From Clostridiales bacterium UBA8153 (GTDB taxonomy: Bacteria > Bacillota > Sulfobacillia > UBA8153): 13,564 nt of DNA. The translations under genes were made by a program, and so were the position numbers. The first letter of the stretch is position 1. Every line of letters begins with the position of its first letter. The notes beneath the pieces were generated by a model. The model did not search any database. It was not told the DNA's origin and saw nothing but the letters and a program-made list of their open reading frames with translations. Where the stretch lies: NCBI GenBank assembly GCA_003449495.1, contig DMHJ01000048.1, positions 2,749-16,312 on the forward strand, given 5' to 3'. Shown piece by piece: positions 1 to 13,564 of the stretch.

Positions 1-860
1 ACACCGGCACGGATCTGGGTGGCGCCATTAATGGATGCCACCTGTCCTTCCAAGGATTTCAGCAGGGCGAAGGTCTTATCGGCCATGTTCATGCGCCCGA
101 AGCCTTCGGTGATGACCACGGCGAACGGGATGTCCTCATGACCGGTGATGGCCACGCCGATATCGTAGCCGAGATACTCCACCAGGTCGCTATCTATGAT
201 CCCGCCCGCCACCAGGCCCGTCGCTCCCACTTCCGCGGCACGCTTCAGTGCATCCCGGGTGATCAGGGAGCCCCCCACCACCAATTTGCCGTTGTGCTCG
301 GGCTTGAGGCAGCTGCCCTCGAGGGCCTCGGTGGGATCGTTCACCGCCACGGCGATGCTTCCCCGGTGCTCGCCACCGATGCCGAAAATGCCCTGGATAT
401 AGCCGCCCTCGGTCTCCACCACCACGCCCTGTCCCGGCATGACCTCGGCAACCCTGCCTCTAATGTAGGCACTCACTTCTACGGGGACCGGCGGGGTTCT
501 CACGGTCACCTGCCCGGTGACTTGGGACACGTTCTCGATCACCCCGTTGACGCTGGAGCGAGCCCGGTGCTTGAACAACCCGAAGAACGTGGAGTACATG
601 GCGATGACTTCCCCTTCATTCACCGGGTCGCCTGCCTGCTTCAACATGACATCGGGTACGTCGGCCCCTTCCAGGCCGAGCATGTTGGCCACATTGATGG
701 TCAGGGCATCACCGGGAATGTTGGTGCGCGCCACCACCGTGCCGGGTTCGGTCAGTTCACCGGGCCTAACCAGGACGTCGCCGCGCAACGGTAGGCGGCG
801 CATCTTCCTTATCTTGCTGGATGCGGTCACCTTGAGACCCGGAGTGTATGCGTGGGCCAT
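1..860 (-). CDS. GlmL-associated barrel protein, copy A (3' end cut by window)
   Basis: Partial gene: 286 codons are visible and the C-terminus lies beyond base 1. The ATG at 860 is two bases after the stop of the upstream GlmL-like gene, so the two are almost certainly translated as a pair. It is clearly homologous to the gene at 4346-5701: shared blocks include RRLPLRGDVLV (residues 21-31), SVNGVIENV (103-111), GVVVE (145-149), IFGIG (158-162), KLVVGGSLIT (192-201), ITGHED (238-243) and SINGATQIRAG (277 onward). The pattern of short glycine turns and alternating beta strands (GD-V-xxGxxIA ... xNGVIENV) resembles barrel-sandwich/lipoyl-like folds, but no EAMKM- or DK-type modification lysine is present. 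It has one barrel segment where copy B has two. It has almost no cysteine (one, at 184), unlike copy B. I cannot name the family; a scaffold or adaptor for the ATPase is inference. Confidence 0.85.
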   Translation of the reverse strand, partial: MAHAYTPGLKVTASSKIRKMRRLPLRGDVLVRPGELTEPGTVVARTNIPGDALTINVANMLGLEGADVPDVMLKQAGDPVNEGEVIAMYSTFFGLFKHRARSSVNGVIENVSQVTGQVTVRTPPVPVEVSAYIRGRVAEVMPGQGVVVETEGGYIQGIFGIGGEHRGSIAVAVNDPTEALEGSCLKPEHNGKLVVGGSLITRDALKRAAEVGATGLVAGGIIDSDLVEYLGYDIGVAITGHEDIPFAVVITEGFGRMNMADKTFALLKSLEGQVASINGATQIRAG

Positions 861-862
861 CT

Positions 863-2755
863 CTAGTCACGCCCCTTTTGCCTGGCCTTCAGGCTGGCTA
901 CGGCCTCTTGCGGGTACATGTTGAGCGCCTCGAACCAACTCCACAGCTGGTGCGACCGCACGGTGCTGTCGGCAGCCAGTTCGAGGGGCCTCCCCCGGCA
1001 ATCCAGCACTACGCCGACCACTCCACCGTGCACCGTAGTGCGGGAGCTGTGGCCCATCCCCTGGCCCACGGTGAAATGGCGGGAAACGTGGATGTTGGCT
1101 TCGGCCTTCTCGCCGTCGGCCAGCGGTATTACCTTGATCTCACCGGCGTTGACCCGCTCAGACACTTGCTTACCGGTGGCCAGCGTCAGGTCGATGGACA
1201 AGCATTCGGTGCCCGCCCTGACCTTGCTGGGGCTGCCTACCGGAGCCACGGCCGTACCCAGACGGATGAGGCAGTCACGCTCGAACACCTCCATGGCGGC
1301 GCGGGGATGGATGGTCGACAAAATCCCCAGCTGGGGCATCATGAAGATGGAGTCCACCGCCAACATGGTGGTGCTTTCAGGCTGGAAGGCATCGAGCATC
1401 ATCAGGGCCGACTGGGCCCGGCGGGGGGCATGAGACAGTACGCCTCCCGACCCCACCAGGATCCCCAGCTCGGTGAGGTTGATGTAGGTGACATCGCTGC
1501 CCACCTGGTCGAACACTTCGCTGATGGTCCGTTGCCGCTGCACGCCGCGCAGTCCCACGGCCAGGCTCTTGTGGTGTTCAAAGGCCAGCCTCAGAGCTTC
1601 CCGGGCGATGGCCTGCTCAATGATGAGCTCCTCGAGGGTCTGCGGAATGGTGGTCGGTCGGATCATCTTATTGCGGATGCGGTTGCGCAAGTCGCCTTCA
1701 TCGATGTAGAAGGGCACCCAGCGCATGATGTTGGCCAGCCCGGCTTCTAGCAGCACGTTGCAGATGCTGTAGGACATGCCCAGGTTGGCCGAGACCGTGC
1801 GGTTGAAGAGCTCGCCGTGGTCGCCGAACACCGAGAACACGTCGGTGGTGGCGCCCCCAATATCCACCCCGATGACGTTAGTCTTATACTCCGTCGCCGT
1901 CGTCTGCATGCCGATGCCCACCGCTCCCGGCGTGGGCATGATGGGTATCGGGCTCCACTGCATGAGCTTGTTGTAGCCGGGCGCCTGGGCCATGACGTGC
2001 TCCATAAACAGATTGTGGATTTCCTCTCGTGCCGGCTGTAGCACTTCCCTTTCCAGCACCGGCCGTAAATTGTCCACGATGCGTAGGTCGGTCTTCTCGC
2101 CTAGAATGCCATTGATGTGGTCCCGCGCCTTGATGTTGCCTGCGAATATCACCGGTAGTTGAAAGCCCACGCCGAGCCTGGGCCTGGGATCCGCTGCGGA
2201 GATAAGCTCGGCGATCTCCACCACGTGGGTCAGAGTTCCCCCGTCTATGCCCCCAGACACTAAGAGCATATCGGGACGCAGTTGACGGATGCGCTGGATC
2301 TTCTGGTGCGGCTTGCGCCCATCATCTACGGCGATGGTGTCCATGACGATGGCACCGGCCCCCAGAGCCGCCCGCTGGGCGCTCTCAGCCGTCATAGTCT
2401 TGACCACCCCAGCCACCATCATCTGCAGGCCGCCGCCGGCGCTGGAGGTGGACATAAAGATATCCACCCCGCTACCATCAGGTTGCCGCGGCGTGATCAC
2501 CCCTTGCTCTGCCAGGAATCTCCTGCCGGTTAGCTCCTCGACCTCGCGGATGGCATTACGGGCACCGGCCGTTACATCCTCAAAGGGAGCTTCCACGGTG
2601 GTGGGAGCTTCGCCCCGCACGATCAAACGATACTCCCCGTTGACCTTCTCGATGAGGATGGCCTTGGTGGTCGTACTGCCGCAGTCCGTTGCCAAGATGG
2701 ATTCGATCTCCATATTGGCCAACGGCACACGGGTCTCACTGGAAGTCGCGGTCAC
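863..2755 (-). CDS. GlmL/MutL-family ASKHA ATPase, copy A
   Basis: Member of the glutamate-mutase-associated GlmL (MutL) family, which belongs to the actin/Hsp70/sugar-kinase ATPase superfamily. The family is thought to reactivate or chaperone adenosylcobalamin-dependent mutases; the target is not encoded here. Visible motifs, counted from the GTG start: phosphate-1 loop DCGSTTTK (24-31), a SSAGGGLQMMVAG block (104-116), phosphate-2 loop DIGGATTD (298-305) and adenosine loop GSGGVLSHAPR (436 on). At about 630 residues it is longer than clostridial GlmL (about 460), through a beta-rich C-terminal extension (from about 498) ending in GGVVGVVLDCRGRPLEL and a helical tail. Start: the open frame reaches a GTG at 2776, but an AAAGGAGGA site at 2764-2772 sits downstream of it, so the GTG at 2755 (10-base spacing) is preferred. 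An ATG at 2713 lacks a ribosome binding site. The barrel partner gene follows after 2 bases. Confidence 0.88.
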   Translation of the reverse strand: MTATSSETRVPLANMEIESILATDCGSTTTKAILIEKVNGEYRLIVRGEAPTTVEAPFEDVTAGARNAIREVEELTGRRFLAEQGVITPRQPDGSGVDIFMSTSSAGGGLQMMVAGVVKTMTAESAQRAALGAGAIVMDTIAVDDGRKPHQKIQRIRQLRPDMLLVSGGIDGGTLTHVVEIAELISAADPRPRLGVGFQLPVIFAGNIKARDHINGILGEKTDLRIVDNLRPVLEREVLQPAREEIHNLFMEHVMAQAPGYNKLMQWSPIPIMPTPGAVGIGMQTTATEYKTNVIGVDIGGATTDVFSVFGDHGELFNRTVSANLGMSYSICNVLLEAGLANIMRWVPFYIDEGDLRNRIRNKMIRPTTIPQTLEELIIEQAIAREALRLAFEHHKSLAVGLRGVQRQRTISEVFDQVGSDVTYINLTELGILVGSGGVLSHAPRRAQSALMMLDAFQPESTTMLAVDSIFMMPQLGILSTIHPRAAMEVFERDCLIRLGTAVAPVGSPSKVRAGTECLSIDLTLATGKQVSERVNAGEIKVIPLADGEKAEANIHVSRHFTVGQGMGHSSRTTVHGGVVGVVLDCRGRPLELAADSTVRSHQLWSWFEALNMYPQEAVASLKARQKGRD

Positions 2756-2812
2756 TAATAGAAGTCCTCCTTTCACGCGCTGTCTATCTCGACATCATTC
2801 TCTATCCTATAG

Positions 2813-3760
2813 TCAAATCCCTTCTGGCTTCAGCAGCTCAAGGCGCGGTGGAAGTGAGTTTAGCGGGTGCCGGTCCATTTTCTCCTGCAAGTCCCCGGAG
2901 AAGGCGCGTACGTACACCTGGGTGGACGACGCATCGCTATGCCCGGCGATCTCCTGCAAGGACCTAATGTCCATGCCCGCGCCGCACAAAAGCGCCAGAC
3001 AGGTGTGCCTGAGTTTGTGTACGGACAGTCTCCGCCCCACGAGCGACCTGGCGGCGATCTTGCCGAACACGTACTGCATGGAGCGAGCGGTCATGGGCCT
3101 GCCGGCTCTCCCCACAAAACAAAAATCGTGGTCCACAGCCGGCCGTACGTTCAGCCAGTCGGCAAAGGAGCGGGCGGCAACCGGCGTAAGCGGGACTACG
3201 CGCAACCGGCTACGCCGTCCCCTGATGGTCAGCCACCGGCCGGGGAGATTCAGGTCGCCCAGCCTGAGGTCGACCGCCTCCGACAGGCGGCACCCGCAAT
3301 GAAGGAACACCGACATGAGACAGTAATCGCGCTCGGGATGATGGCTGGCGGAGCGCACGGCTCCCAACAGCAACAGGGCCTCTTGGGCACTGAGGGCGTC
3401 GGGCGCCCGGCGGGCGAACTCCACGGCCGGTACCTGCCGGGCCGGGTTGCCCAAGACCACCCCGGTCTCACCCAAATACGTAAAGAAGGCCCGCAGTGCC
3501 GAAAGTTTCCTGGCCAATGAGCGCCGGTTGTTGCCGCGCTCTGCCCGGCAATGTTCGATAAAGGCAGCCACTACCGGTGGCGTGACTTGGGCCAGACTGC
3601 CCCAAGGCTCTATCCCGGCAGCAGTACTTGTGGCCAGAAACTGCAGGAAGAGCCGGGCGTCGTCCCGGTAGCCCTGGACGGTGCGGGCGGCGAGGCGCCC
3701 CTCAGCAGTGAGCCGGGCGCCAAAAGCAACCAAAGGACACCCAGGGGGACTCTGTGGCAT
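2813..3760 (-). CDS. XerC/XerD-like tyrosine recombinase with atypical active site
   Basis: A 315-residue site-specific recombinase with the usual two parts: an N-terminal SAM-like core-binding domain (about 10-105) and a C-terminal catalytic domain (about 120-290). Catalytic positions visible are Arg158 in GCRLSEAVDL, His248 and Arg251 in SVHKLRHT, His274 in IAGHSDASSTQ and the nucleophile Tyr283 in TQVYV. The beta-hairpin that normally reads GKGNKERVVPL reads GRRSRLRVVPL, so the lysine expected at 182 is arginine. A further 30 residues follow the tyrosine, ending in a Pro/Leu-rich tail. The ATG at 3760 has AAGGAG nine bases upstream. It lies between the 113-residue gene and GlmL copy A on the same strand. 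Role could be chromosome-dimer type resolution, integration of an element, or a local switch; no att or dif-like site was recognised nearby. Family call sure, function not. Confidence 0.9.
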   Translation of the reverse strand: MPQSPPGCPLVAFGARLTAEGRLAARTVQGYRDDARLFLQFLATSTAAGIEPWGSLAQVTPPVVAAFIEHCRAERGNNRRSLARKLSALRAFFTYLGETGVVLGNPARQVPAVEFARRAPDALSAQEALLLLGAVRSASHHPERDYCLMSVFLHCGCRLSEAVDLRLGDLNLPGRWLTIRGRRSRLRVVPLTPVAARSFADWLNVRPAVDHDFCFVGRAGRPMTARSMQYVFGKIAARSLVGRRLSVHKLRHTCLALLCGAGMDIRSLQEIAGHSDASSTQVYVRAFSGDLQEKMDRHPLNSLPPRLELLKPEGI

Positions 3761-3873
3761 TGGCTCTTACTCCTTGGAGCCCCCGGCGCCTTCAGCATGA
3801 GCGTATCACACGGCAGTCGCCCGGTACCGTCGAACCCCGTCGATGGCCCCCGGCGAACTGGTGCCTCCCCAGC

Positions 3874-4215
3874 TCAGCGTTTGGCCGCCTTGCGTTTCTG
3901 GCGGTCAGCCTTGTTCCGCTCCCGGAGCGCGCGCTCTTCCTCATCCTGCTTTCTGGCCAATTCCTCCAGCTTCTGCACCAGGCGATCGATGTTACCACGG
4001 TCTTCGAAGAAGAACGCGTACTCCTCGAAACTACTGAAGAACACTCCCACGATCGGGGAGAAGAAGTGCATGGCCTGGCTGCCCAAAAAGCTGATGGGAC
4101 GGTGCATCTCCAGGAAGATGATGGCAGGTGTGATCATGCCGAAATGGGCCACGCGTTCGGCGATGGCCTGGCAGATCTCATCCCGGCGCTCGGGGGTAAG
4201 GGGGTCTTTCGTCAT
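3874..4215 (-). CDS. Small protein of unknown function with charged helical tail
   Basis: A 113-residue protein with no recognised family. The first 25 residues look helical (TPERRDEICQAIAERV). The centre, about residues 28-70, is strikingly hydrophobic and aromatic (TPAIIFLEMHRPISFLGSQ, then FFSPIVGVFFSSFEEYAFFFED), and could be a membrane-dipping or buried segment. Residues about 73-113 are a charged Lys/Arg/Glu helix typical of a coiled coil (LVQKLEELARKQDEEERAL), ending RQKRKAAKR. There is a good ribosome binding site, GAGGGAG, about eight bases before the ATG at 4215, which argues for a real gene. It follows barrel partner B by 130 bases and precedes the recombinase by 113 bases. I infer a membrane-associated or complex-forming accessory protein; no enzyme motif is visible. 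Confidence 0.75.
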   Translation of the reverse strand: MTKDPLTPERRDEICQAIAERVAHFGMITPAIIFLEMHRPISFLGSQAMHFFSPIVGVFFSSFEEYAFFFEDRGNIDRLVQKLEELARKQDEEERALRERNKADRQKRKAAKR

Positions 4216-4238
4216 CTAGGCGCTCCCTCGTTTCGCAC

Positions 4239-4307
4239 AACCGGAACTGGGCCGAACACTTACGCTGTAGTCTGGCCTGAGCCTACCCCGGTGGTTAACC
4301 GGAACTG
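4239..4307. repeat. Pair of 11-base direct repeats before the 113-residue gene
   Basis: AACCGGAACTG occurs at 4239-4249 and 4297-4307, 58 bases apart start to start. The second overlaps CCGGT-GGTTA-ACCGG (4288-4302), a small stem. Both lie in the 130-base gap between barrel partner B and the small gene, where a promoter or recombinase site could be expected; no clear -35/-10 was seen. Confidence 0.5.
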
Positions 4308-4345
4308 ACTACCACTATGCGCCACACCGCCGGCGACCCGGGAAG

Positions 4346-5701
4346 TCAGAAAACCTCCACATTGGCGCGGGGGACGATGACCCGCTCTCCGCCGGACAAC
4401 TCCACTTCCAGCACGGGAACGCTGGCACCGGTTTCCACCGGGGCGGCTTCCCGGGGCACGGCCGCTACCCGGCCCGTGGCTCCGAAGTATGGCTCGCTGA
4501 TGACACGCACCCTCAGGCCGGGCGTGACCTCTTCATCAACATGCTGGGGTTTGGCCAGCTCCCCCTGGTGGTTGGGAAACGCCACAATGATCTCGGGACG
4601 GATGGCACCCGCGCGGATCTGGGTGGCCCCGTTGATGGAGGCCTCCATCCCATCCAAAGCCTTTAGAGCCTGGAACACCTCTTCGTGCATGGCCAGATGC
4701 CCAAACCCCTCCATAAGGATGAGGGTTGTGCCGATATCTTCCTGACCGGTGATCCCGACGCCTAGTCTCACGCCCAGTGACTTGATGATGTTCAGGTAGT
4801 TGGCCGTTCCGGTGATTACCCCCCGGCAACCTACGGTCAGTGCCTGCGCCAGGGCTTCGTCGGTGATGAAGGAACCGCCGATCACGATCTTTCCTTCCAG
4901 GTCCTCGGTGATCATCTCCTTGGTCAGAACCTGGTCTCCCCGGTCAACCAGGACCTTTAGTTCGCCGTGGGTCTCCCGGCCGACGCCGAAGATGCCGTTG
5001 ACTTTGACCGCCGGAACTTCCACCACCACGCCCCGCTGGGGCAGCACTTCGGTTACCGTCCCTTGCACGTATGCATTCACCGTCACCTGTTTGAATGGCC
5101 GGGCAATGGTGACGTATCCGGTCGTCGCGTTGACCTCGGATATCACACCGGAGATGGGGGCACGGGCGCATATGGCGAAGAACGCCGCCCCTTCGCCCTT
5201 CTTGGCAATGATCTGGGTGCGTTTGACCTCCTGGCCCACGGTGCGAAGCATGTATTTGGGCAGATCCTTAGGCTTGCATTTCAGCTCGAAGGCGCAGTCA
5301 AAGCTGATGGGAGGTTCCTCGCGGCCGAACTCCTCCCGCAGCACGATGCGCCCGGAGCGTTCCGAGATATCCTCGATGATCCCATCGGTAGGGGCTTCCA
5401 GGTCCTTACGACCGTAGAGACCTTGCTCGGTGGAACGGGCGATAACCTCCTTGGTCTTCACGCGGTCGCCGATCTTCTTGAGACAGCAGGCGTTGAGGTC
5501 GCACTCGTCTATACCCAAGAGCCTGGCCGCAGGTAGCACCCACGGGATGCCGGGTCTGAGGGCGATGCGGGCTACCACCGTGTCAGGCTCTACCCGGTCC
5601 CCTTTGTCCACCAAGACTTCACCCGGAAGCGGCAATCTGCGTATCTTCTTCACATTCTCCACGCGATACTCAGCGTTTGAAGAACCGGGACCTGAGCCCA
5701 C
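4346..5701 (-). CDS. GlmL-associated barrel protein, copy B
   Basis: Complete paralogue of the truncated gene at 1-860; about 451 residues from a GTG at 5701. That start has GAGGGGG eight bases upstream and puts 20 residues before RRLPL, exactly as in copy A. An ATG at 5725 is possible but has its SD-like bases touching the codon. Regions in order, counted from the ATG: RRLPLPGEVLVDKGD (29-43); a first barrel-sandwich-like unit with KIGDRV ... APTDGIIEDISERSG (84-125); a second with VGQEVKRTQIIA ... APISGVISEVNATTG (163-203); a glycine-rich GVVVEVPAVKVNGIFGVG segment (232-249); an alpha/beta region with IVIGGSFIT and ITGQEDIG (280-332); SINGATQIRAG (363-373); and a C-terminal SH3/KOW-like strand set (about 400-459). 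It carries a cysteine cluster, ECDLNACC (74-81), missing in copy A. It overlaps the preceding ATPase gene by 32 bases, indicating coupled translation. Function unknown; an adaptor or substrate-docking role is inference. Confidence 0.85.
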   Translation of the reverse strand: MGSGPGSSNAEYRVENVKKIRRLPLPGEVLVDKGDRVEPDTVVARIALRPGIPWVLPAARLLGIDECDLNACCLKKIGDRVKTKEVIARSTEQGLYGRKDLEAPTDGIIEDISERSGRIVLREEFGREEPPISFDCAFELKCKPKDLPKYMLRTVGQEVKRTQIIAKKGEGAAFFAICARAPISGVISEVNATTGYVTIARPFKQVTVNAYVQGTVTEVLPQRGVVVEVPAVKVNGIFGVGRETHGELKVLVDRGDQVLTKEMITEDLEGKIVIGGSFITDEALAQALTVGCRGVITGTANYLNIIKSLGVRLGVGITGQEDIGTTLILMEGFGHLAMHEEVFQALKALDGMEASINGATQIRAGAIRPEIIVAFPNHQGELAKPQHVDEEVTPGLRVRVISEPYFGATGRVAAVPREAAPVETGASVPVLEVELSGGERVIVPRANVEVF

Positions 5702-7577
5702 CTTGACGTCCCCCTCTCTCGTCATCCCCTTCTTGCACCCGGTGCTCCGCCTGGTAGCGGTTGACGTACTCCATGGGATATACGTTCAACGTCTCTATCC
5801 ACTCCGTCAGCTTCTTGATCCGGGAGGCGGCATCTGCCGGCATCTCAAAGGGCCGGCCACGCGCATCCAGGATCAATCCCACCAGTCCCCCCTGGACTTC
5901 GGCCGTGACGGGCTTACCCTTACCCTCTCCTACTTCGAACTGGGGTTTGGGGGTGATGGTGACTTTGGCTTTCTCCCCTACGCCCAGTTGGTAGCGCTTG
6001 AGCTCCCCGTAGACGATGTTGTGGCTGACCACTTGCCCGTCCGGGAACTCCACCTTCATTGCGCCCACGGGCTGGCCATCCTTGGCCTTACCTACCGGGG
6101 CAATGGAAGTGCCCAGGCGCACCAAGCAGTCTTTATCAAACACCTCGGAGGCGATCTCCGGATGGGTGGTAGAAAGCACGCCCAGGTGAGGCATCATGAA
6201 AATGCTGTCCACCGCCAGCTGGGTGATCCCTTCGGGCAAGAACGCATCTAGAAGCATGATGGCGGCCTGCTCGCGGCGAGGGGCATGAGAGAGGATGCCC
6301 CCCGAGCCGACCAGGATATCCAGGCCCAGCATCTCGATGATCTCCACCCCGCCAGACTTGAACATCTTCTGCTGGGTACGCCAGCCTGCCGTGATCACTT
6401 CCTTCTCCACCTTGCGGGCCAGGCTCCGGTGGTGGGCAAAGGACAAGCGCAGGGCCTCCCGGGCCATGGCCTGCTCTAGGATGAGCTGCTTGAGGGTCTG
6501 GGGAATGGTGGTCGGACGCACCATTTTATTGGCGATCCAGTCGGAAATGCTGGCCTCATCCACGCCGAAGGGAACCCACCGGAGGATGTTGTCAAAGCCG
6601 GCCTCTTCCAGGACGTTGGTGATGCTGTAGGACATGCCCAGGTTGGCGCTGACGGTGCGGGTAAAGATCCCGTTGAAGCTGGAGAACACATCGGTGGTGG
6701 CACCGCCGATGTCCACGCCGATGATGTTGGCGTCATACTGCTCGGCCATGACACTGATGATCCTGCCCACGGCGCCGGGCGTGGGCATGATGTCCACGTC
6801 CACCCACTTCATCAGCTGGCCGTAACCCGGAGCCTGGGCCATGACGTGGTTCATGAACAGGTCATGGATGGCCTCACGGGCGGGACCCAAGTTCTCCACA
6901 TCGTGGCGGGGGCGCAGGTTCTCACAGATGTGCACATCCAGCTCGGCACCAACGATGGCCAGCACCATATCCTGGGCATCGCGGTTGCCGGCAAAGACCA
7001 GTGGGAGCCGGTAGGTGCCGCCGAAGCGAGGTTGCGGGTTAGCCTGAACGATGGTCTCGGTCATGGCGGCGATATAGGTCACGGACCCGCCGTCTACGCC
7101 CCCGGACAGGAGGATGATATCCGGTCGCAGCTCGGTGATCCGCGTGATCTGTTCAGAGGTCGAACGGCCATCATCCACGGCGATAACGTCGAGGACTACG
7201 GCCCCCGCTCCCAACGCGGCCCGGTTGGCAGAACTGGCGCTGATCTCGCGTACCAGCCCGGCCACCATCATCTGCAGACCGCCACCGGCGCTGGAGGTGG
7301 ATACGTAGTAGTCCACACCGGTGTCGCCCGCCTTAGGCCTGATGATCCTTCCCGACTCGTCGAGGATGCGCCGCTGCAAAATCTCCTCGACCCTCCGGAT
7401 GGACTTCCTGACCCCGATCATCACGTTCTCCCAAGGGGTCTCCACCGTGGTCGGCATCTCACCGCGGGTGATGAGTCGATACTCGTGACCGCGCTTTTCA
7501 ATGAGGATTGCCTTGGTTGTGGTGCTGCCCACATCAGTAGCCAGGATGGAGTGAATCTGATTGTCGCCCGAGGTCAT
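5670..7577 (-). CDS. GlmL/MutL-family ASKHA ATPase, copy B
   Basis: Close paralogue of the gene at 863-2755, about 635 residues. Motifs from the ATG at 7577: phosphate-1 DVGSTTTK (15-22), SSAGGGLQMMVAG (95-107), phosphate-2 DIGGATTD (289-296), adenosine loop GSGGILSHAPR (425 on) and the C-terminal GGLVGLILDARGRPFE (563-578) extension shared with copy A. Shared unusual blocks such as HVMAQAPGY, DIMPTPGAVG and LGMSYSI confirm the pairing. Start: the frame is open to an ATG at 7613, but GGGAGGGG sits just before the ATG at 7577, and copy A also has only a short leader before SILATD. Known family role is assistance to B12-dependent mutases such as glutamate mutase; here no mutase is adjacent. The 3' end overlaps the barrel partner gene. 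The last 20 residues are basic and glycine-rich, absent from copy A. Confidence 0.9.
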   Translation of the reverse strand: MTSGDNQIHSILATDVGSTTTKAILIEKRGHEYRLITRGEMPTTVETPWENVMIGVRKSIRRVEEILQRRILDESGRIIRPKAGDTGVDYYVSTSSAGGGLQMMVAGLVREISASSANRAALGAGAVVLDVIAVDDGRSTSEQITRITELRPDIILLSGGVDGGSVTYIAAMTETIVQANPQPRFGGTYRLPLVFAGNRDAQDMVLAIVGAELDVHICENLRPRHDVENLGPAREAIHDLFMNHVMAQAPGYGQLMKWVDVDIMPTPGAVGRIISVMAEQYDANIIGVDIGGATTDVFSSFNGIFTRTVSANLGMSYSITNVLEEAGFDNILRWVPFGVDEASISDWIANKMVRPTTIPQTLKQLILEQAMAREALRLSFAHHRSLARKVEKEVITAGWRTQQKMFKSGGVEIIEMLGLDILVGSGGILSHAPRREQAAIMLLDAFLPEGITQLAVDSIFMMPHLGVLSTTHPEIASEVFDKDCLVRLGTSIAPVGKAKDGQPVGAMKVEFPDGQVVSHNIVYGELKRYQLGVGEKAKVTITPKPQFEVGEGKGKPVTAEVQGGLVGLILDARGRPFEMPADAASRIKKLTEWIETLNVYPMEYVNRYQAEHRVQEGDDERGGRQGGLRSRFFKR

Positions 7578-7638
7578 CCCTTCCCCTCCCCACTTATCGC
7601 CGCAAAGGACCAAAGAGTGCTCCTCCAGTTACCGAAAA

Positions 7639-7818: not shown

Positions 7819-8616
7819 TCACTCTTTTGGTCTCCTTAGCAACTGCCCCCTGACCTCCTGGGAGGACTTAAGACGGGCGGACACGATCTCGGTGAGCGTC
7901 TCCTCGGTGGCCACCCGGCCATCATAGTATAGCATGATGCCTCCGCGAATCCTGCCTCTGAGGTTTCTGGGGTCATAGCCGACTTGGATACCGTCGTGGT
8001 AACGGTGGTAGGCCCAGAAGTCTTCCCATTTCTTATTCTCCCGGGTGAAGAAATTGGTCATCTTCACGCGTTCAGTGGTGAGCACGTACTTGATGGGGAA
8101 GAAAAAAGCCGAAAGGGACCCGGCACAAATGACCAGGAGGGCTAGGGGAACGTACCACACCCGGTACACATAATACGTAAGCCCGGTGGCCAGCACGATG
8201 ATGCCGATGACGGCTGCGGCCACTTTCCTGCGGCGCTTGCAGAGGTGGACCGACCAGGTCAACAACTCCTTCTCCTCTACCGGTTCCGCCACCAGAGACG
8301 GCGCTGGGCTTGGTCGCGCGGCCGGTTCGGTACGATGCGGTTTGGAGGGCGCGGCAGCGGGTTTGCGCATGCCCGGACCAGGGCTTCTCGGCACAGTCGC
8401 CGGTCCCGTTCCTCTGGGAGCGGCTCGCCGGGGGGCGCCGGGCGACGGAGGCTTCGGTAGCGGTCTGTTGCCCGGTTGCGTTGCAGGCTGAGGTGGCTGG
8501 GTGGCTGCTGCCGTGGCCGCCGCCCCGGGGACCCCTGCAGGCTTCGGCCTCCGGCGGCGCTTACGCTTGGGTTTGGGCGAGAGGCCTTCCCCATTGGGCA
8601 GTGGTTTCTCGGTCAT
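7819..8616 (-). CDS. Two-helix membrane protein with Pro/Ala/basic N-terminal tail and PH-like end
   Basis: A 265-residue protein from the ATG at 8616, which lies six bases after GAAGGGTGG; the ATG at 8622 touches that site, and an upstream start at 8658 has no support. Residues 1-115 are low complexity and probably disordered: KPKRKRRRRPKP near the start, then alternating Pro, Ala, Gly and basic residues. Two membrane helices follow at about 132-150 (VAAAVIGIIVLATGLTYY) and 155-173 (YVPLALLVICAGSLSAFFF). The remaining 90 residues (YVLTTERVKMTNFFTRENKKWEDF ... IMLYYDGR) resemble a bacterial PH-like domain as seen in small two-helix membrane proteins. Topology would put both the tail and the PH-like part on the cytoplasmic side. 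It is 241 bases upstream of GlmL copy B on the same strand, separated by a hairpin. Role unknown; membrane anchor or nucleic-acid/lipid contact by the basic tail is inference. Confidence 0.8.
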   Translation of the reverse strand: MTEKPLPNGEGLSPKPKRKRRRRPKPAGVPGAAATAAATQPPQPATQPGNRPLPKPPSPGAPRRAAPRGTGPATVPRSPGPGMRKPAAAPSKPHRTEPAARPSPAPSLVAEPVEEKELLTWSVHLCKRRRKVAAAVIGIIVLATGLTYYVYRVWYVPLALLVICAGSLSAFFFPIKYVLTTERVKMTNFFTRENKKWEDFWAYHRYHDGIQVGYDPRNLRGRIRGGIMLYYDGRVATEETLTEIVSARLKSSQEVRGQLLRRPKE

Positions 8617-8910
8617 CGGCATCCACCCTTCTAAATACACACGCAGAGTGTGTATCACTTCTTGCCCTCACGCCGATATCCTTCTCTGCCTACCGCGCCT
8701 ATTAGGTGCCACGCCGAGGCTGGCGCTGCCGGCTTCGGGGAGCGACGCTCGAGGCTATGCATACTTCTGCCTAGGGGTGGCACTATACACTTCGTCCACA
8801 ATACGGCGTCATTGTGTAGTATCACGATAGGCGCCGTAATAGCGAAAGCCTTCGCCTGTTAATGTCGCCGTGTGCACCACCGATGCGTAGCCCTTCGTAG
8901 TTGCCCACAC
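8617..8910. other. Divergent intergenic region without a convincing gene
   Basis: About 290 bases upstream of both the membrane-protein gene and the mgtE promoter. Open frames here are short, lack ribosome binding sites and have no recognisable product. Apart from the inverted repeat at 8797-8816 and the ribosome binding site at 8623-8631 (minus), nothing was recognised. Confidence 0.6.
8797..8816. promoter_or_regulatory. Short inverted repeat in the divergent gap (possible operator)
   Basis: CACAAT (8797-8802) and ATTGTG (8811-8816) are perfect arms around an 8-base spacer, between the minus-strand membrane-protein gene and plus-strand mgtE. A minus-strand TATAGT (8787-8782) nearby could be a -10 element for the membrane-protein gene. 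Weak evidence. Confidence 0.3.
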
Positions 8911-9106: not shown

Positions 9107-9164
9107 CCGTTCCCCCGCACTCCAGCCCACACTCTTGGCTTCGTTCCTGGCTGCCCATGGTACC

Positions 9165-9207
9165 CCCGGCTACGGCGGCGTGCTGCCGTATGCCGCCGTA
9201 TGCCGGG
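9165..9207 (+). promoter_or_regulatory. Strong hairpin between M-box and mgtE RBS
   Basis: CCCGGCTACGGCGGC (9165-9179) pairs with GCCGCCGTA and GCCGGG (9192-9200, 9202-9207): 15 base pairs with one bulged T and a 12-base loop. Only CTT follows, so it is not a textbook intrinsic terminator, but its position suits the expression platform of the leader. Confidence 0.5.
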
Positions 9208-9238
9208 CTTGGGGCAGTCCGAACCGGGTGCAAGTAAT

Positions 9239-9243
9239 GGAGG
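9239..9243 (+). promoter_or_regulatory. Ribosome binding site fixing the mgtE start
   Basis: GGAGG eight bases before GTG 9252. It overlaps the in-frame ATG at 9237, so that ATG and any farther upstream codon are unlikely starts. Confidence 0.75.
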
Positions 9244-9251
9244 TGAGCATC

Positions 9252-10586
9252 GTGGAAGAGAGGACGACGGCTACCATCAAGGCCTTCCTGGCCGGCAGGA
9301 ACTGGGATGGATTGCAGGCAGCCATCAGGCGGCTACCGGTGGCGGACATGGCCGAGGTGCTGGTGGATGCAGGAAAAACCGACCGGGTGTTGATCTACCG
9401 CATCTTACCCCGGGAGCTGGCGGCAGAGGTTGCCGCTCATCTGGAGCCAGATGATCTGCACGCTCTCATCCGGGAGCTGAGCGATGCCGAGGCCAGGCAG
9501 CTGATGTCGGGCCTGCGGCCAGATGATCGCACTTACTTCCTGGGGGAGCTGCCGGCCCAGGTCACCCAGGAGATTCTGAACTTGCTCAGTCCCGAAGACC
9601 TGCGCGAAGCCCGGGAGCTTTTGGGCTACCCGGAGCAGTCGGTGGGTAGGCTGATGACCCCGGACTACCTGGCAGTGCGCCCCGCCTGGACGGTCGAGCA
9701 AGTGCTGGCCCACATCCGCCACCGGGGCCGGGACAGCGAGACCATTAACACCATCTACGTGACCGATGACCGCTGGCACTTGGTAGGAACTGTGGAACTG
9801 AGACACGTGATCTTGGCCTCTCCCACGACTCCGGTTAGCGAGCTGATGCATACCCCGGCCGTCAGCCTGAAGGCCTTTGATGACCGGGAGCAAGCGGTGG
9901 CCATCATGCAGAGACATGATGTATTTGCCCTGCCCGTGGTAGAAGCCGGTGGCGCGCTCTTGGGGATCGTCACCTCCGACGACGTTTTAGACGTGGCCCA
10001 GGCCGAAGCCACCGAGGACTTCCACCGGGCCTCCGCCGTGTCTCCGCTGGTCGAACGGTATACCGCGACGGGGCCCATGCAGCTGGTGAGGAGGCGCGTG
10101 ATGTGGCTACTCGGGCTGGTCGTGGTAAACCTCATGTCCTCGGGTGTCATCGCCATCTTCGAGGAAACGCTGGCCGCCACCATCGCCCTGGCCTTCTTCA
10201 TGCCACTACTTATCGACAGTGGGGGCAACATCGGCGCTCAGGCTGCCACCATGGTGATCCGGGGCCTGGTAACCGGGGATCTTACCACCGGCCGCTGGGC
10301 ACGCACGCTGGTGAAGGAAGCCGCCGTAGGCGGCGTGCTGGGCTTATCCATGGGGGTCACGGCCAGCGTGCTCGGTCTTTACCGGGGTGGCTACGGACTG
10401 GCCCTGGTGGTCGGCTTAACCATGGTCGTGCTGGCATTCGTAGCCAACCTGGTCGGAGCCATGCTCCCGTTCGTCTTCACGCGCCTCCGCATCGACCCGG
10501 CCGTAGCCAGCGGCCCCCTCATCACCACGGTGGCGGATACCCTGGGGCTATTCATCTACTTCACCATAGCCCGCCTCATCCTCTGA
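9252..10586 (+). CDS. mgtE: MgtE-family magnesium transporter
   Basis: Mg2+ channel/transporter of the inner membrane, 444 residues from the GTG at 9252, a normal MgtE length. That start has GGAGG (9239-9243) eight bases ahead. The open frame extends up to 9135, but that stretch lies in the predicted leader and is not MgtE-like. Domains: a cytoplasmic N domain of helical repeats (about 1-125), two CBS domains (about 130-250; MTPDYLAVRP and LMHTPAVSL mark their starts), a connecting helix, and five membrane helices (about 278-444). Diagnostic residues are PLLIDSGGNIGAQAAT (318-333) and the pore aspartate Asp429 in ADTLGLFIYF. It is the only plus-strand gene and stands alone, with its own promoter and a probable Mg-responsive leader. 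It converges with the M20 gene. Confidence 0.96.
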   Translation: MEERTTATIKAFLAGRNWDGLQAAIRRLPVADMAEVLVDAGKTDRVLIYRILPRELAAEVAAHLEPDDLHALIRELSDAEARQLMSGLRPDDRTYFLGELPAQVTQEILNLLSPEDLREARELLGYPEQSVGRLMTPDYLAVRPAWTVEQVLAHIRHRGRDSETINTIYVTDDRWHLVGTVELRHVILASPTTPVSELMHTPAVSLKAFDDREQAVAIMQRHDVFALPVVEAGGALLGIVTSDDVLDVAQAEATEDFHRASAVSPLVERYTATGPMQLVRRRVMWLLGLVVVNLMSSGVIAIFEETLAATIALAFFMPLLIDSGGNIGAQAATMVIRGLVTGDLTTGRWARTLVKEAAVGGVLGLSMGVTASVLGLYRGGYGLALVVGLTMVVLAFVANLVGAMLPFVFTRLRIDPAVASGPLITTVADTLGLFIYFTIARLIL

Positions 10587-10739: not shown

Positions 10740-11927
10740 TCACGGCAGAAAGTCGGCGACGATCTGGCAAAACGCCGCCACGCCCGTCCACATGACCTCC
10801 TCGTCGAAGTCATAGGCGGCGTTGTGACCGGGCAGCACCATGCCTCTGTCCTCATTACGCGAACCCAGCTTGAAAAAACAGCCCGGGCGCTCGGTGGCGA
10901 AGTACGAGAAGTCCTCTGCCCCCATGGTGGGCTGCTTGACCGAGAGCACCCGCTCCGGCCCCACCACTTTGCCCAGGGACTGCTCCACCCGGGCGGTGAC
11001 CTGCTGGTCGTTGACGATGGGTGGGTAGCCGAAACTATACTGCAGCTGGTAGGAAGTGCGGGTCGCCGCCGTGACTCCCCCGGCCACCCGGGAGATACGG
11101 TCCTGCATGACGGTACGCGCTGCCTGGTCCAGCAGGCGCACGGTCCCGGACATCACCACCTCATCGGCGATGACATTGTGGCGGTAGCCGCCGCGGATGG
11201 TGCCCACGGTGACTACCCCCGGTTCCAGCGGATTCAGCTCGCGGCTGACGATGGTCTGTAGCGCGGTCACCAGGTGAGCGGCGGCGGCGATGGCGTCTAC
11301 GGCCGTGTGAGGCGCCGCGCCGTGGCCGCCCTTGCCGCTCACGGTGATCTGGAAGCCGTCCGATGAAGCGCTGGCGGTCCCGTACTTCACGGCCATGGTG
11401 CCGGCGGGCAGGTCATTGTAGAGGTGCAGGCCCACCACCCAGTCGACACGGGGGTTATCCAGGACTCCCGCCTGGATCATGGGTAGCGCGCCGCCCGGCC
11501 CTTCCTCGGCTGGCTGGAACAGGAATTTCACCTGACCGCCCAGCTGCGGGGCCAGCTCAGACAGGACTTGGGCCGTCCCTAACAGGATGGCCGTGTGGCC
11601 ATCGTGGCCGCAGGCGTGCATGACTCCGGGCACCGAAGAGGCGTATGGCACTGCCTTGCGGTCCTGGATGGGCAGGGCATCCATGTCCGCCCTCAGGGCG
11701 ATGGTAGGTCCCGGCCTGCCGCCGGTCAGGACTCCCACTACTCCCGTGCCGCCCACGCCGGTCTGCACCGGGATGTTGAGCGCCCGCAACCGCTCAGCCA
11801 CTAGGCCGGCGGTACGGTGCTCCTGCATACCCAGCTCCGGATGCCTGTGCAGATCCCTCCTGGTTTCAACCAGTCCCGGCTGGACCTTCCGGGCCCGGGC
11901 ACAGATGGCCTCAGTGGTGATGCTCAT
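10740..11927 (-). CDS. M20-family amidohydrolase (N-acyl amino acid / IAA-conjugate hydrolase type)
   Basis: A 395-residue metal-dependent amidohydrolase of the M20D group, full length. Family members cleave N-acyl or amide-linked amino acids in the cytoplasm. Likely metal ligands are Cys106 and His108 in MHACGHDGH, Glu142 next to the general-base Glu141 in FQPAEEGPGG, His168 in GLHLYNDLPAG, and His368 in LPGHNAAYDF. The dimerisation domain carries GKGGHGAAPH (198-207), and MGAEDFSYF is at 335-343. The start ATG at 11927 overlaps the DUF4438 stop as ATGA, with GGGAGG five bases ahead, so translation is coupled. It is the last gene of the peptidase operon and ends in a large hairpin shared with mgtE. 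Substrate cannot be read from sequence; aminoacylase, IAA-conjugate hydrolase and diaminopimelate-type deacetylase are all in this group. Confidence 0.95.
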   Translation of the reverse strand: MSITTEAICARARKVQPGLVETRRDLHRHPELGMQEHRTAGLVAERLRALNIPVQTGVGGTGVVGVLTGGRPGPTIALRADMDALPIQDRKAVPYASSVPGVMHACGHDGHTAILLGTAQVLSELAPQLGGQVKFLFQPAEEGPGGALPMIQAGVLDNPRVDWVVGLHLYNDLPAGTMAVKYGTASASSDGFQITVSGKGGHGAAPHTAVDAIAAAAHLVTALQTIVSRELNPLEPGVVTVGTIRGGYRHNVIADEVVMSGTVRLLDQAARTVMQDRISRVAGGVTAATRTSYQLQYSFGYPPIVNDQQVTARVEQSLGKVVGPERVLSVKQPTMGAEDFSYFATERPGCFFKLGSRNEDRGMVLPGHNAAYDFDEEVMWTGVAAFCQIVADFLP

Positions 11928-12796
11928 AGATCCTCCCGTAATTTCAGGATGCGCGCTAAGTTGGCCGCCGGATCGATGACCGGAGCGATGTCGCCGTGGA
12001 GGGACGAGAAGAGCCCGGTAACCCCCGGACCATGGCCGGCCAGGTTGGAGTCACCGTGCACCACGATGCCGATGGTGACGGCACCGCGCTTGTAGCTGCG
12101 ACCGAAATCACCGGCGTGGTCGGCGATGGCCACCAGGTCCCCCAGCCGGAGTTGGTCCAGCCCGGCCTGCTTGAGGACTTCAGGGTCCTGGGTCGTGATG
12201 TCATAGTCGCCCTTCTCGGAGGTAGGCGAGCCCAAACCAGAGCCCATCACCACCGCCGGTGCGACGGCGGTCACCGGCACTACCAGCTTGCCGTCGTCTC
12301 CTCGTGCCAAGGCCAAAGCCTCCAAGAGCCGGGGGGACACGTTCATCACCCGGATGCGGGGAAAGTCCAGTAGCCGCATGCCCTGGCCGCAGCCTTTGAC
12401 CTGGATCTTATCGCCGATGGCCAGTTTGTCCATGACCTCCGGGCTGAAGTCGATGAGGACGTGCTCGATGCCTCCGTGCTTGCCGGTGACCACGCCGGTG
12501 GCCCCCTTGGCCTCCCCGGTCACGACCCGGGCTTCATTGCCCACGCAGGACAGGAAGTTGTAGGCGTTGTTCTCCCGGACTTCCTTATTCTTGGAGCTGA
12601 CCGCGGGTTCCACGTGATCGCCGGCCCAACCATAGGCCGGATCCCCTACCCGCACGTTGTAGGTGATGCCACCGGTACCGGCACCTACCCGGACCACGCC
12701 GTCGTGCCCCAGCCGGTAGGGGATGTCATTGGCCGGGCCGGATATCTCTCCCAGCACCGACACGGTGACCAGCTGCTCCTTGTTGTACCTGATCAT
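11924..12796 (-). CDS. DUF4438 domain-containing protein
   Basis: A 290-residue protein that I recognise as the DUF4438 family of bacteria and thermophiles; its biochemical role is unknown. Recognisable stretches are GGITYNVRVGDPAYGWAGDHVEP (about 42-64), SCVGNEARVVTGEAKGATG (83-101), KGCGQGMRL (134-142) and a final GDLVAIADHAGDFGRSY ... GDSNLAGHGPG. Abundant glycine and short strands indicate a beta-rich globular protein with no signal peptide or membrane segment. The ATG at 12796 follows the peptidase stop by 22 bases and has GGAGGGG upstream. It overlaps the M20 amidohydrolase by four bases. Sitting between two hydrolases suggests a part in peptide or amino-acid-derivative breakdown, but this is by association only. 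Confidence 0.88.
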   Translation of the reverse strand: MIRYNKEQLVTVSVLGEISGPANDIPYRLGHDGVVRVGAGTGGITYNVRVGDPAYGWAGDHVEPAVSSKNKEVRENNAYNFLSCVGNEARVVTGEAKGATGVVTGKHGGIEHVLIDFSPEVMDKLAIGDKIQVKGCGQGMRLLDFPRIRVMNVSPRLLEALALARGDDGKLVVPVTAVAPAVVMGSGLGSPTSEKGDYDITTQDPEVLKQAGLDQLRLGDLVAIADHAGDFGRSYKRGAVTIGIVVHGDSNLAGHGPGVTGLFSSLHGDIAPVIDPAANLARILKLREDL

Positions 12797-12818: not shown

Positions 12819-13564
12819 CTACCCGCAACCTCCCCGGTGCAGCAGCTCCAGGACATCGGCCACTGGCAGCTGCCGTCTGGTATGGCCGTCCCGCCCGATC
12901 ATGGTTTCCGCAGCAAACAACGTATTGAGAATGGCCTCTTCTACCGTATCGGCCGCCGCCCGGAACAGGTGACTTACCGCCGGCCCGGCATCGGGCAGCA
13001 TGCTTGCGGTAGTGGGACCACGCTCATAGTGATCTAGCGGCTCAGCCGTGGAAAAGGCCAGCACAAAGTCGCCACTACCGTGAGAGTAATACGAGCCGGT
13101 GCGGGCCAGGCCGGCGGCGGCCCTCCGGGCTACACGACCCAGCTGGCGGCCATCGAGCGGCGCGTCGGTAGCCAGCACCATCACAATGGACCCGTCCGGC
13201 AGACCCGGTGCCGCCCGGGCTTTGAGCAGCTTGCCCACGGGCACGCCGGACACCAGCAAGTCGCCCTCCCCGCCGAAGTTGGCCAGCACCAGGGTCCCCA
13301 AGACGTATCCTCCGGCCTGGGCCGGCAGTACCCGGGAAGCACTCCCGATGCCGCCCTTAAAGCCAAGGCAAGACATGCCCGTGCCCGCGCCCACGTTACC
13401 CTCGGTCACCGGCCCGTCCGCCGCCGATGCGAGCGCCGCCTGCACATGCTCGCCGCGCACATGGCGGCCGCGAATGTCGTTGAGGTAGCCGTCATTGCAC
13501 TCCGCCACCACCGGGTTAACGGTGCCGGTGGTCACCCCAATGTCCGGATTGCCGTCGAGCATGT
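12819..13564 (-). CDS. P1-family aminopeptidase (DmpA/BapA type), N-terminus beyond window
   Basis: The last 248 or so codons of a self-processing Ntn-fold aminopeptidase; the family is about 330-375 residues, so roughly the first 100 are missing and the Met at 13562 is internal. Known members (DmpA, BapA) release N-terminal D-, L- or beta-amino acids after the precursor cleaves itself before a serine. Here the Gly-Ser cleavage site is Gly124-Ser125 in LPDGSIVMVLATDAPL, counted from the Met at 13562; Ser125 would be the nucleophile of the beta chain. Other hallmarks are VVAECNDGYLNDIRG (18-32), GNVGAGTGMSCLGFKGGIG (55-73) and HGSGDFVLAFSTA. No defect is visible. It heads, or is inside, the operon with DUF4438 and the M20 enzyme. 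Whether it prefers D- or beta-amino acids cannot be told. Confidence 0.93.
   Translation of the reverse strand, partial: MLDGNPDIGVTTGTVNPVVAECNDGYLNDIRGRHVRGEHVQAALASAADGPVTEGNVGAGTGMSCLGFKGGIGSASRVLPAQAGGYVLGTLVLANFGGEGDLLVSGVPVGKLLKARAAPGLPDGSIVMVLATDAPLDGRQLGRVARRAAAGLARTGSYYSHGSGDFVLAFSTAEPLDHYERGPTTASMLPDAGPAVSHLFRAAADTVEEAILNTLFAAETMIGRDGHTRRQLPVADVLELLHRGGCG

Follow-up and report, generated by a model that had tools for sequence, protein, structure and literature searches.

GlmL and Or-4 belong to the MutL family (PF13941) and are the accessory ATPases of glutamate mutase and ornithine aminomutase. In another kind of system, the energy-coupling factor (ECF) transporters, one energising ATPase module is shared among several membrane modules. 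Here we consider a 13,564-nucleotide stretch of DNA from Clostridiales bacterium UBA8153 (GenBank assembly GCA_003449495.1, contig DMHJ01000048.1), which we will call the window. It encodes two long GlmL-type ATPases, GlmL1 and GlmL2, and each of their genes is followed by a gene for an unnamed partner protein. We propose that long GlmL and its partner are the cytosolic ATPase pair of an undescribed membrane machine, and that they serve a cassette of four proteins (with a probability of roughly 0.6). The functional link between the GlmL-partner pair and the cassette is well supported.

Two diverged GlmL-partner modules

The window covers bases 2749–16312 of a 16,312-base contig, which is part of a draft genome (1.9 Mb, 82% complete). 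As a first-pass annotation of this DNA had described, two GlmL-family genes are each followed, on one strand, by homologous genes for barrel-rich partners. In the order of transcription, GlmL1 (5670–7613, reverse strand) and partner1 (4346–5725, reverse strand) come first, then the small gene p113 and a gene for a Xer-type recombinase, and then GlmL2 (863–2776, reverse strand) and partner2 (3–860, reverse strand). For GlmL1, a TTG start gives an open reading frame (ORF) of 647 amino acids; the ATG at 7577, which matches the end given in the first-pass annotation, is the likely start. Partner1 is the long form; it likely starts from the GTG at 5701, and then overlaps GlmL1 by 32 bases. Partner2, the short form, begins 2 bases after GlmL2 and extends past base 1. 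It has 426 amino acids in the contig, where its far end is masked as N.

Both GlmL proteins score far above Pfam's MutL cut-off of 27 bits (420.5 and 400.8 bits; E = 1e-125 and 9.7e-120). GlmL2 is below the cut-offs of the NCBIfam models for GlmL (218 vs. 475 bits), Or-4 (213 vs. 600), and the GlmL family (156 vs. 204), and GlmL1 is similarly under all three. Both proteins keep the phosphate-1, phosphate-2, and adenosine motifs of the acetate and sugar kinase/Hsp70/actin (ASKHA) ATPases. The two are 56% identical over 619 columns, and the two partners are 40% identical over 234 amino acids in their best stretch.

In a tree of 75 GlmL rows, GlmL1 lies in a clade of 19 (support 100) and GlmL2 lies in a Bacillota clade of 23 (support 96). 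(The tree was built by a quick method, with support from the Shimodaira-Hasegawa-like approximate likelihood ratio test; several long branches were flagged and deep placement is unsure.) The long GlmL from archaea and from other non-Bacillota group near GlmL2, with weaker support (89), and two from Chloroflexi stand apart. Since the supported clades of GlmL1 and of GlmL2 both span many Bacillota, the duplication that gave rise to the two genes is, on this tree, older than the split of many Bacillota lineages. This agrees with the first-pass annotation, which had read the two copies as an old, diverged duplication with all ATPase motifs intact. We propose that the duplication gave two specialised pairs. 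A third long GlmL-partner pair is found on contig C159 of the same genome, and a degenerate pair is on C139.

The partner family is large and unnamed. The AlphaFold model of the partner shows a KOW domain and a swivel-like domain alongside the barrel units (no NGN domain was seen among the matches listed). Partner1 matches RnfC_N (32 bits, E = 1.2e-7), and the match covers the barrel-sandwich stretch only; the full domain set of RnfC or NqrA is not present in the partner. Partner2 has no match to any Pfam family above the cut-off, nor to RnfC_N. The first-pass annotation had called this family the unexplained part. It is indeed uncharacterised, and profile searches placed neither partner in a well-characterised family, but it is not devoid of recognisable folds, given its barrel-sandwich, swivel-like, and KOW parts.

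We compared 58 named loci from Bacillota, WOR-3, Nitrospira, Planctomycetota, Chloroflexi, Zixibacteria, Eisenbacteria, and archaea. The co-occurrence of long GlmL and partner, which had been put forward as a check on the window, holds up: 78 of 81 long GlmL genes are directly followed by a partner gene. One more is at the end of its stretch, and the other two are separated from the partner behind them by a short antisense ORF in our gene calls. Seen from the other side, GlmL directly precedes 82 of 90 partners. Three of the remaining partners are at ends and five have no GlmL just before them, namely one short-ORF case and four WOR-3 loci with a different gene there (L044, L045, L047, and L061). 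Each of those four WOR-3 genomes has a MutL match elsewhere (in one genome, only a contig-edge fragment). At L044, L045, and L047, the partner adjoins a gene from a transketolase-family cluster.

A four-gene membrane cassette goes with the pair

By clustering neighbouring genes and scanning for families upstream of GlmL1 in many Bacillota, we found a cassette that encodes a DUF6754 protein (PF20539) and members of three families without a Pfam name, which we call TM25, E14, and TM11. Pfam gives DUF6754 no function. Among the papers listed in searches of the open-access literature, none dealt with DUF6754 (by name or accession) or with the accession PF13941, and none was recognisably about a system of this kind. 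Across 138 called loci (L009–L066, L089–L128, and L149–L188), the order DUF6754-TM25-E14-TM11 is nearly invariant: 84 of 90 DUF6754 genes start the full set. Among the other six, four are cut by ends, one is in a decayed copy, and one lacks a recognisable fourth gene. The median gaps between cassette genes are 14–22 bases, and no other gene lies between the four members of the 84 full cassettes.

The cassette is often contiguous with the pair. Of the 58 named loci, 14 have a full cassette directly before GlmL, and another two have one ORF in between. The partner is followed by a full cassette in three loci (two from Nitrospira and one from Planctomycetota), and four loci have a partial cassette (two from Chloroflexi and two from Bacillota). 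The compact run p113-DUF6754-TM25-E14-TM11-GlmL-partner occurs in four genomes from two families (G129 and G234; G159 and G184). The ATPase gene that directly adjoins the 14 cassettes is GlmL. No ABC (ATP-binding cassette) ATPase is encoded within any of the 84 full cassettes, which leaves room for one that acts from another locus. In the genome of the window, contig C216 carries two cassettes, of which the second is truncated by the contig's end. In an Anaerolineales locus (L062, 3–7223), E14 is the end (2094–2406) of a 2406-amino-acid open frame, and is followed by TM11, GlmL, and the partner.

The pair and the cassette also co-occur across genomes. Among 249 genomes from the window's phylum (its own included), 19 have a strong match to the partner (leaving out four rows of 18–20 bits), 20 have DUF6754, and 18 have both, versus 1.5 expected (Fisher exact test, p = 3e-24, which ignores kinship, although the genomes are not independent). 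At the level of families in this sample, DUF6754 is found in all 8 partner-bearing families, and the partner is found in 8 of 9 DUF6754-bearing families. In 300 genomes from an archaeal phylum, strong partner matches are found in six genomes and DUF6754 in the same six. (Fourteen weak partner rows and one weak DUF6754 row were dropped, and three of the six were seeds known beforehand.) Of 20 partner genomes that we reached via loci (including the three archaeal seeds), 19 have DUF6754 and 19 have MutL; among the 19 with DUF6754, it is only a divergent match in G257 and only a fragment in G266. DUF6754 is missing only from G253, where one contig (L064) opens partway through a cassette and continues into GlmL-partner. 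The only genome in the 249-genome sample with a strong partner match and no DUF6754 is G009. A large piece is missing from within the ATPase domain of its GlmL (L109, contig C18, 11979–13388), which is possibly decay after loss of the client.

The first-pass annotation had suggested a self-standing two-part machine, perhaps as two paralogous heteromers, whose client is elsewhere or is not a mutase. The two modules, the client encoded elsewhere, and (probably) its not being a mutase stand, but the module is not self-standing, as it goes with the membrane cassette.

Mutases are not the consistent companion

We considered that long GlmL might be an ordinary reactivase, which would repair an adenosylcobalamin mutase that is encoded elsewhere, with the partner as an adaptor. 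This would suit a protein of the MutL/GlmL family, and the window's genome does encode candidates: an OraE-like mutase on contig C52 and MCM (methylmalonyl-CoA mutase)-family proteins on C76 and C135. However, the OraE-like gene is directly followed by its own short GlmL (451 amino acids). In our tree, this groups with four other short GlmL, and these five, each adjoining a PF09043 gene, form one group (support 100) on a long branch. Also, as described above, the long GlmL proteins of the window score too low for all three NCBIfam models.

The mutase gene that a reactivase would suggest is not nearby either. None was found among the window's ORFs (11 proteins were scanned with Pfam; the short ORF p102 was outside the scan), as the first-pass annotation had stated, and our check of the readable part of the 2.7 kb between base 1 and the contig's end found none adjoining. 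That part holds a DUF483-cluster gene and a uracil-DNA-glycosylase-family gene.

We then surveyed 27 partner genomes for GlmE (PF06368), lysine/ornithine aminomutase (PF09043), and MCM (PF01642); diol dehydratase-type enzymes were outside this test. GlmE was over the cut-off in 4 genomes (strongly in 3), the aminomutase in 11, and MCM in 18. Sixteen genomes have neither strong GlmE matches nor the aminomutase, and 7 of these also lack MCM, so that none of the three families was over the cut-off (G251, G253–G257, and G259). All three are absent from four archaeal genomes. These absences are weakened by gaps in metagenome-assembled genomes (MAGs) and by untested B12 enzymes such as diol dehydratase. 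Unlike any mutase family tested, DUF6754 is present in 26 of these 27 genomes. Conversely, five genomes from the same class that have a single, classical-scoring MutL have neither the partner nor DUF6754. Overall, a mutase gene neither adjoins the window's modules nor consistently co-occurs with the partner, and we consider the reactivase explanation to be very improbable.

The proposed machine

TM25 and TM11 are polytopic proteins. By crude hydropathy, two helices were seen in 75 of 89 DUF6754 proteins and in 73 of 90 E14 proteins. From hydropathy and charge bias, which is clear at the first helix, the soluble domain between the two helices of DUF6754 is probably cytoplasmic. On the same grounds, both ends of E14 are probably inside, and its Rossmann-like domain is probably outside. 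A structural model of E14 places this domain between the two helices (predicted local distance difference test 94, predicted TM-score 0.89). In Nitrospira and Planctomycetota, DUF6754 proteins have, by eye, an N-terminal signal-peptide-like stretch before the first helix, which agrees with the predicted topology. (In Nitrospira, this N-terminal stretch has a weak, below-cut-off match to Fn3.)

We propose that GlmL and the partner would form a soluble ATPase pair that probably docks on the cytoplasmic domain of DUF6754. ATP cycling by the GlmL subunit would drive or reset the conformation of the cassette, and one pair would be shared among several cassettes, for which transport may be the likeliest use. 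That a shared ATPase acts directly on the cassette seems probable to us. Transport is a more tentative suggestion, prompted by the two polytopic proteins of the cassette, its apparently external soluble domain, its many paralogues, and an ATPase that appears to be shared. It is rather unlikely, but conceivable, that these proteins are a new class of primary membrane transporter or translocase in bacteria and archaea, powered by an actin-fold (ASKHA) GlmL-type ATPase and a barrel/KOW adaptor in place of an ABC or rotary ATPase, with up to a couple of dozen cassettes of different specificity per motor.

Most of the genomes that we checked have several cassettes per GlmL-partner pair. For instance, six archaeal genomes have one MutL gene and 3–7 DUF6754 genes. 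High numbers of DUF6754 matches are also seen in Ca. Fermentithermobacillus (G264), with 14, of which at least two are fragments, and in the Bacillota genome G267 (the source of locus L053), with 27 in 3.8 Mb. When paralogous cassettes from five genomes were compared, 198 of 201 pairs showed higher conservation of DUF6754 than of E14, although the pairs are not independent of each other. This fits with DUF6754 being the constant, ATPase-facing part, although there could be other reasons for it.

These same observations bear on the main rival to our proposal, a chaperone or reactivase of the cassette. In this scenario, the role of GlmL-partner would be to load, fold, or reset a cofactor-bearing subunit (DUF6754 or another), and not to energise transport. 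This would keep the known role of the family while giving it a new client, and it would suit both the excess of cassettes over ATPase pairs in most genomes counted and the place of DUF6754 as the most conserved part of the cassette among paralogues. However, we did not recognise any cofactor-binding motif in the cassette, either by eye or in Pfam and NCBIfam scans. Gene contiguity is not decisive, since it fits a stable complex equally well. We view a chaperone as somewhat unlikely, if still a serious candidate.

We also considered that GlmL might be a scaffold. FtsA and PilM are actin-fold proteins that organise membrane proteins with little ATP turnover, and long GlmL is likewise an actin-type ATPase with membrane-protein companions, whose partner is rich in barrel domains that are typical of binding modules. 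But 83 of 101 long GlmL match all three ASKHA motifs by strict patterns, and 8 of the 18 that miss fail the adenosine pattern only. Nor was there any sign of polymerisation or membrane binding, although no search was aimed at these. We consider a scaffold to be quite improbable.

Several observations weigh against our proposal of a shared ATPase pair for the cassette. First, no cassette gene was found in 35 of the 58 named partner loci, within the stretch examined; these include many from Fermentithermobacillaceae and all of the archaeal and WOR-3 loci. (In the Chloroflexi genome G252, DUF6754 is just past the stretch examined, and in the archaeon G469, it begins 176 bases after the partner.) The window's own GlmL-partner genes are likewise on a different contig from the cassette. 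The gene caller for our locus survey was crude, and many of the genomes are incomplete MAGs. Second, 2 of the 20 genomes with DUF6754 in the 249-genome sample lack the partner: G019, which is 78% complete and has no MutL either, and G095, in which the cassette is divergent and all MutL genes are classical-scoring. Third, the archaeon G257 has four MutL and only two, divergent, DUF6754, which is at odds with one ATPase serving many cassettes. Fourth, we derived the topology solely from hydropathy and charge, with a weak charge bias at the last helix of DUF6754. The fold of E14 has no informative match in the PDB, and no functional match.

Finally, one branch of GlmL-partner adjoins, in place of the cassette, genes for an ABC ATPase and an FtsX-type permease, which we take to be MacB-like (L008, L126, L046, L053, and L111). 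The pairs that adjoin such genes suggest that the membrane clients of GlmL-partner can be of more than one kind. Two of these loci are in the window's own genome (L008, on contig C159, 7365–14618, and L126, on C139), where GlmL-partner comes directly after the ABC-ATPase and FtsX-permease genes. The GlmL on C159 has all three ATPase motifs and the GlmL on C139 has none; L053 and L111 each have a motif-poor GlmL and a better-kept one.

Other genes in the window

Between the two modules, p113 (3874–4215, reverse strand) was identified as conserved by comparing neighbourhoods, and has no match to any Pfam family above the cut-off. Its relatives adjoin GlmL-partner in loci from Bacillota, Zixibacteria, and Eisenbacteria. 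The Xer-type tyrosine recombinase (2813–3760; Pfam Phage_integrase) has a relative at that place only in L009, among the 58 named loci. Upstream of GlmL1, p279 (7819–8658, reverse strand) encodes a probable membrane protein. It is a conserved gene whose place in Bacillota is just upstream of either the cassette or GlmL1, and it is at most an accessory to the machine. The p279-type protein of L022 (1125–2000) has an FHA-like domain at its N-terminus. The gene for an MgtE-family divalent cation transporter (9135–10586, forward strand) is unrelated to our finding.

Farther upstream are three genes, all on the reverse strand, that are recurrent neighbours: an M20 peptidase-family gene (10740–11927), which we do not claim as part of the machine, a DUF4438 gene (11924–12796), and an S58 peptidase-family gene (12819–13562), beyond which the window ends with the contig. 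More broadly, the surroundings in Bacillota are rich in peptidases and related genes (S58, asparaginase II, M55 D-aminopeptidase, DUF4438, M20, and C26), which hints at peptides or amino acids as the substrate. Against this, the genes near 61 lone-cassette loci are mixed, and the excess of M20 peptidases near these cassettes is not significant (7 of 123 near vs. 2 of 123 farther away, p = 0.17). Scanning eight proteins with PADLOC gave no accepted match to anti-phage defence (best E = 0.025).

Implications and comparison with known systems

If our proposal is correct, then many genes that are annotated as "hypothetical" or "GlmL family" in Bacillota, WOR-3, Nitrospira, Planctomycetota, Chloroflexi, and archaea would encode the six or seven parts of one machine. 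An ATPase family that has been tied to B12 enzymes would move into membrane biology, and automatic labels of the GlmL type would be misleading. The 14 and 27 DUF6754 matches in two genomes imply that the machine probably matters to the cells that have it.

Long GlmL has the same ATPase core and motifs as GlmL and Or-4. Compared to these, it is about 140–150 residues longer at the C-terminus, is nearly always paired, forms its own branches in the tree, scores below the NCBIfam cut-offs, and has no consistent mutase. The front half of the partner has weak profile similarity to RnfC/NqrA and to biotinyl/lipoyl barrel-sandwich proteins, but the partner adds swivel-like and KOW parts and has no sign of being a redox subunit. 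With NusG/Spt5, the partner shares a KOW domain, and nothing else of NusG was recognised in it. The likeness to ECF transporters would be in the layout only, with one ATPase pair for several membrane modules. Unlike in those transporters, GlmL is an ASKHA-type ATPase, the membrane proteins of the cassette are from no known family, and transport is itself a suggestion. Thus, the family of the ATPase is known, but the assembly resembles no system known to us.

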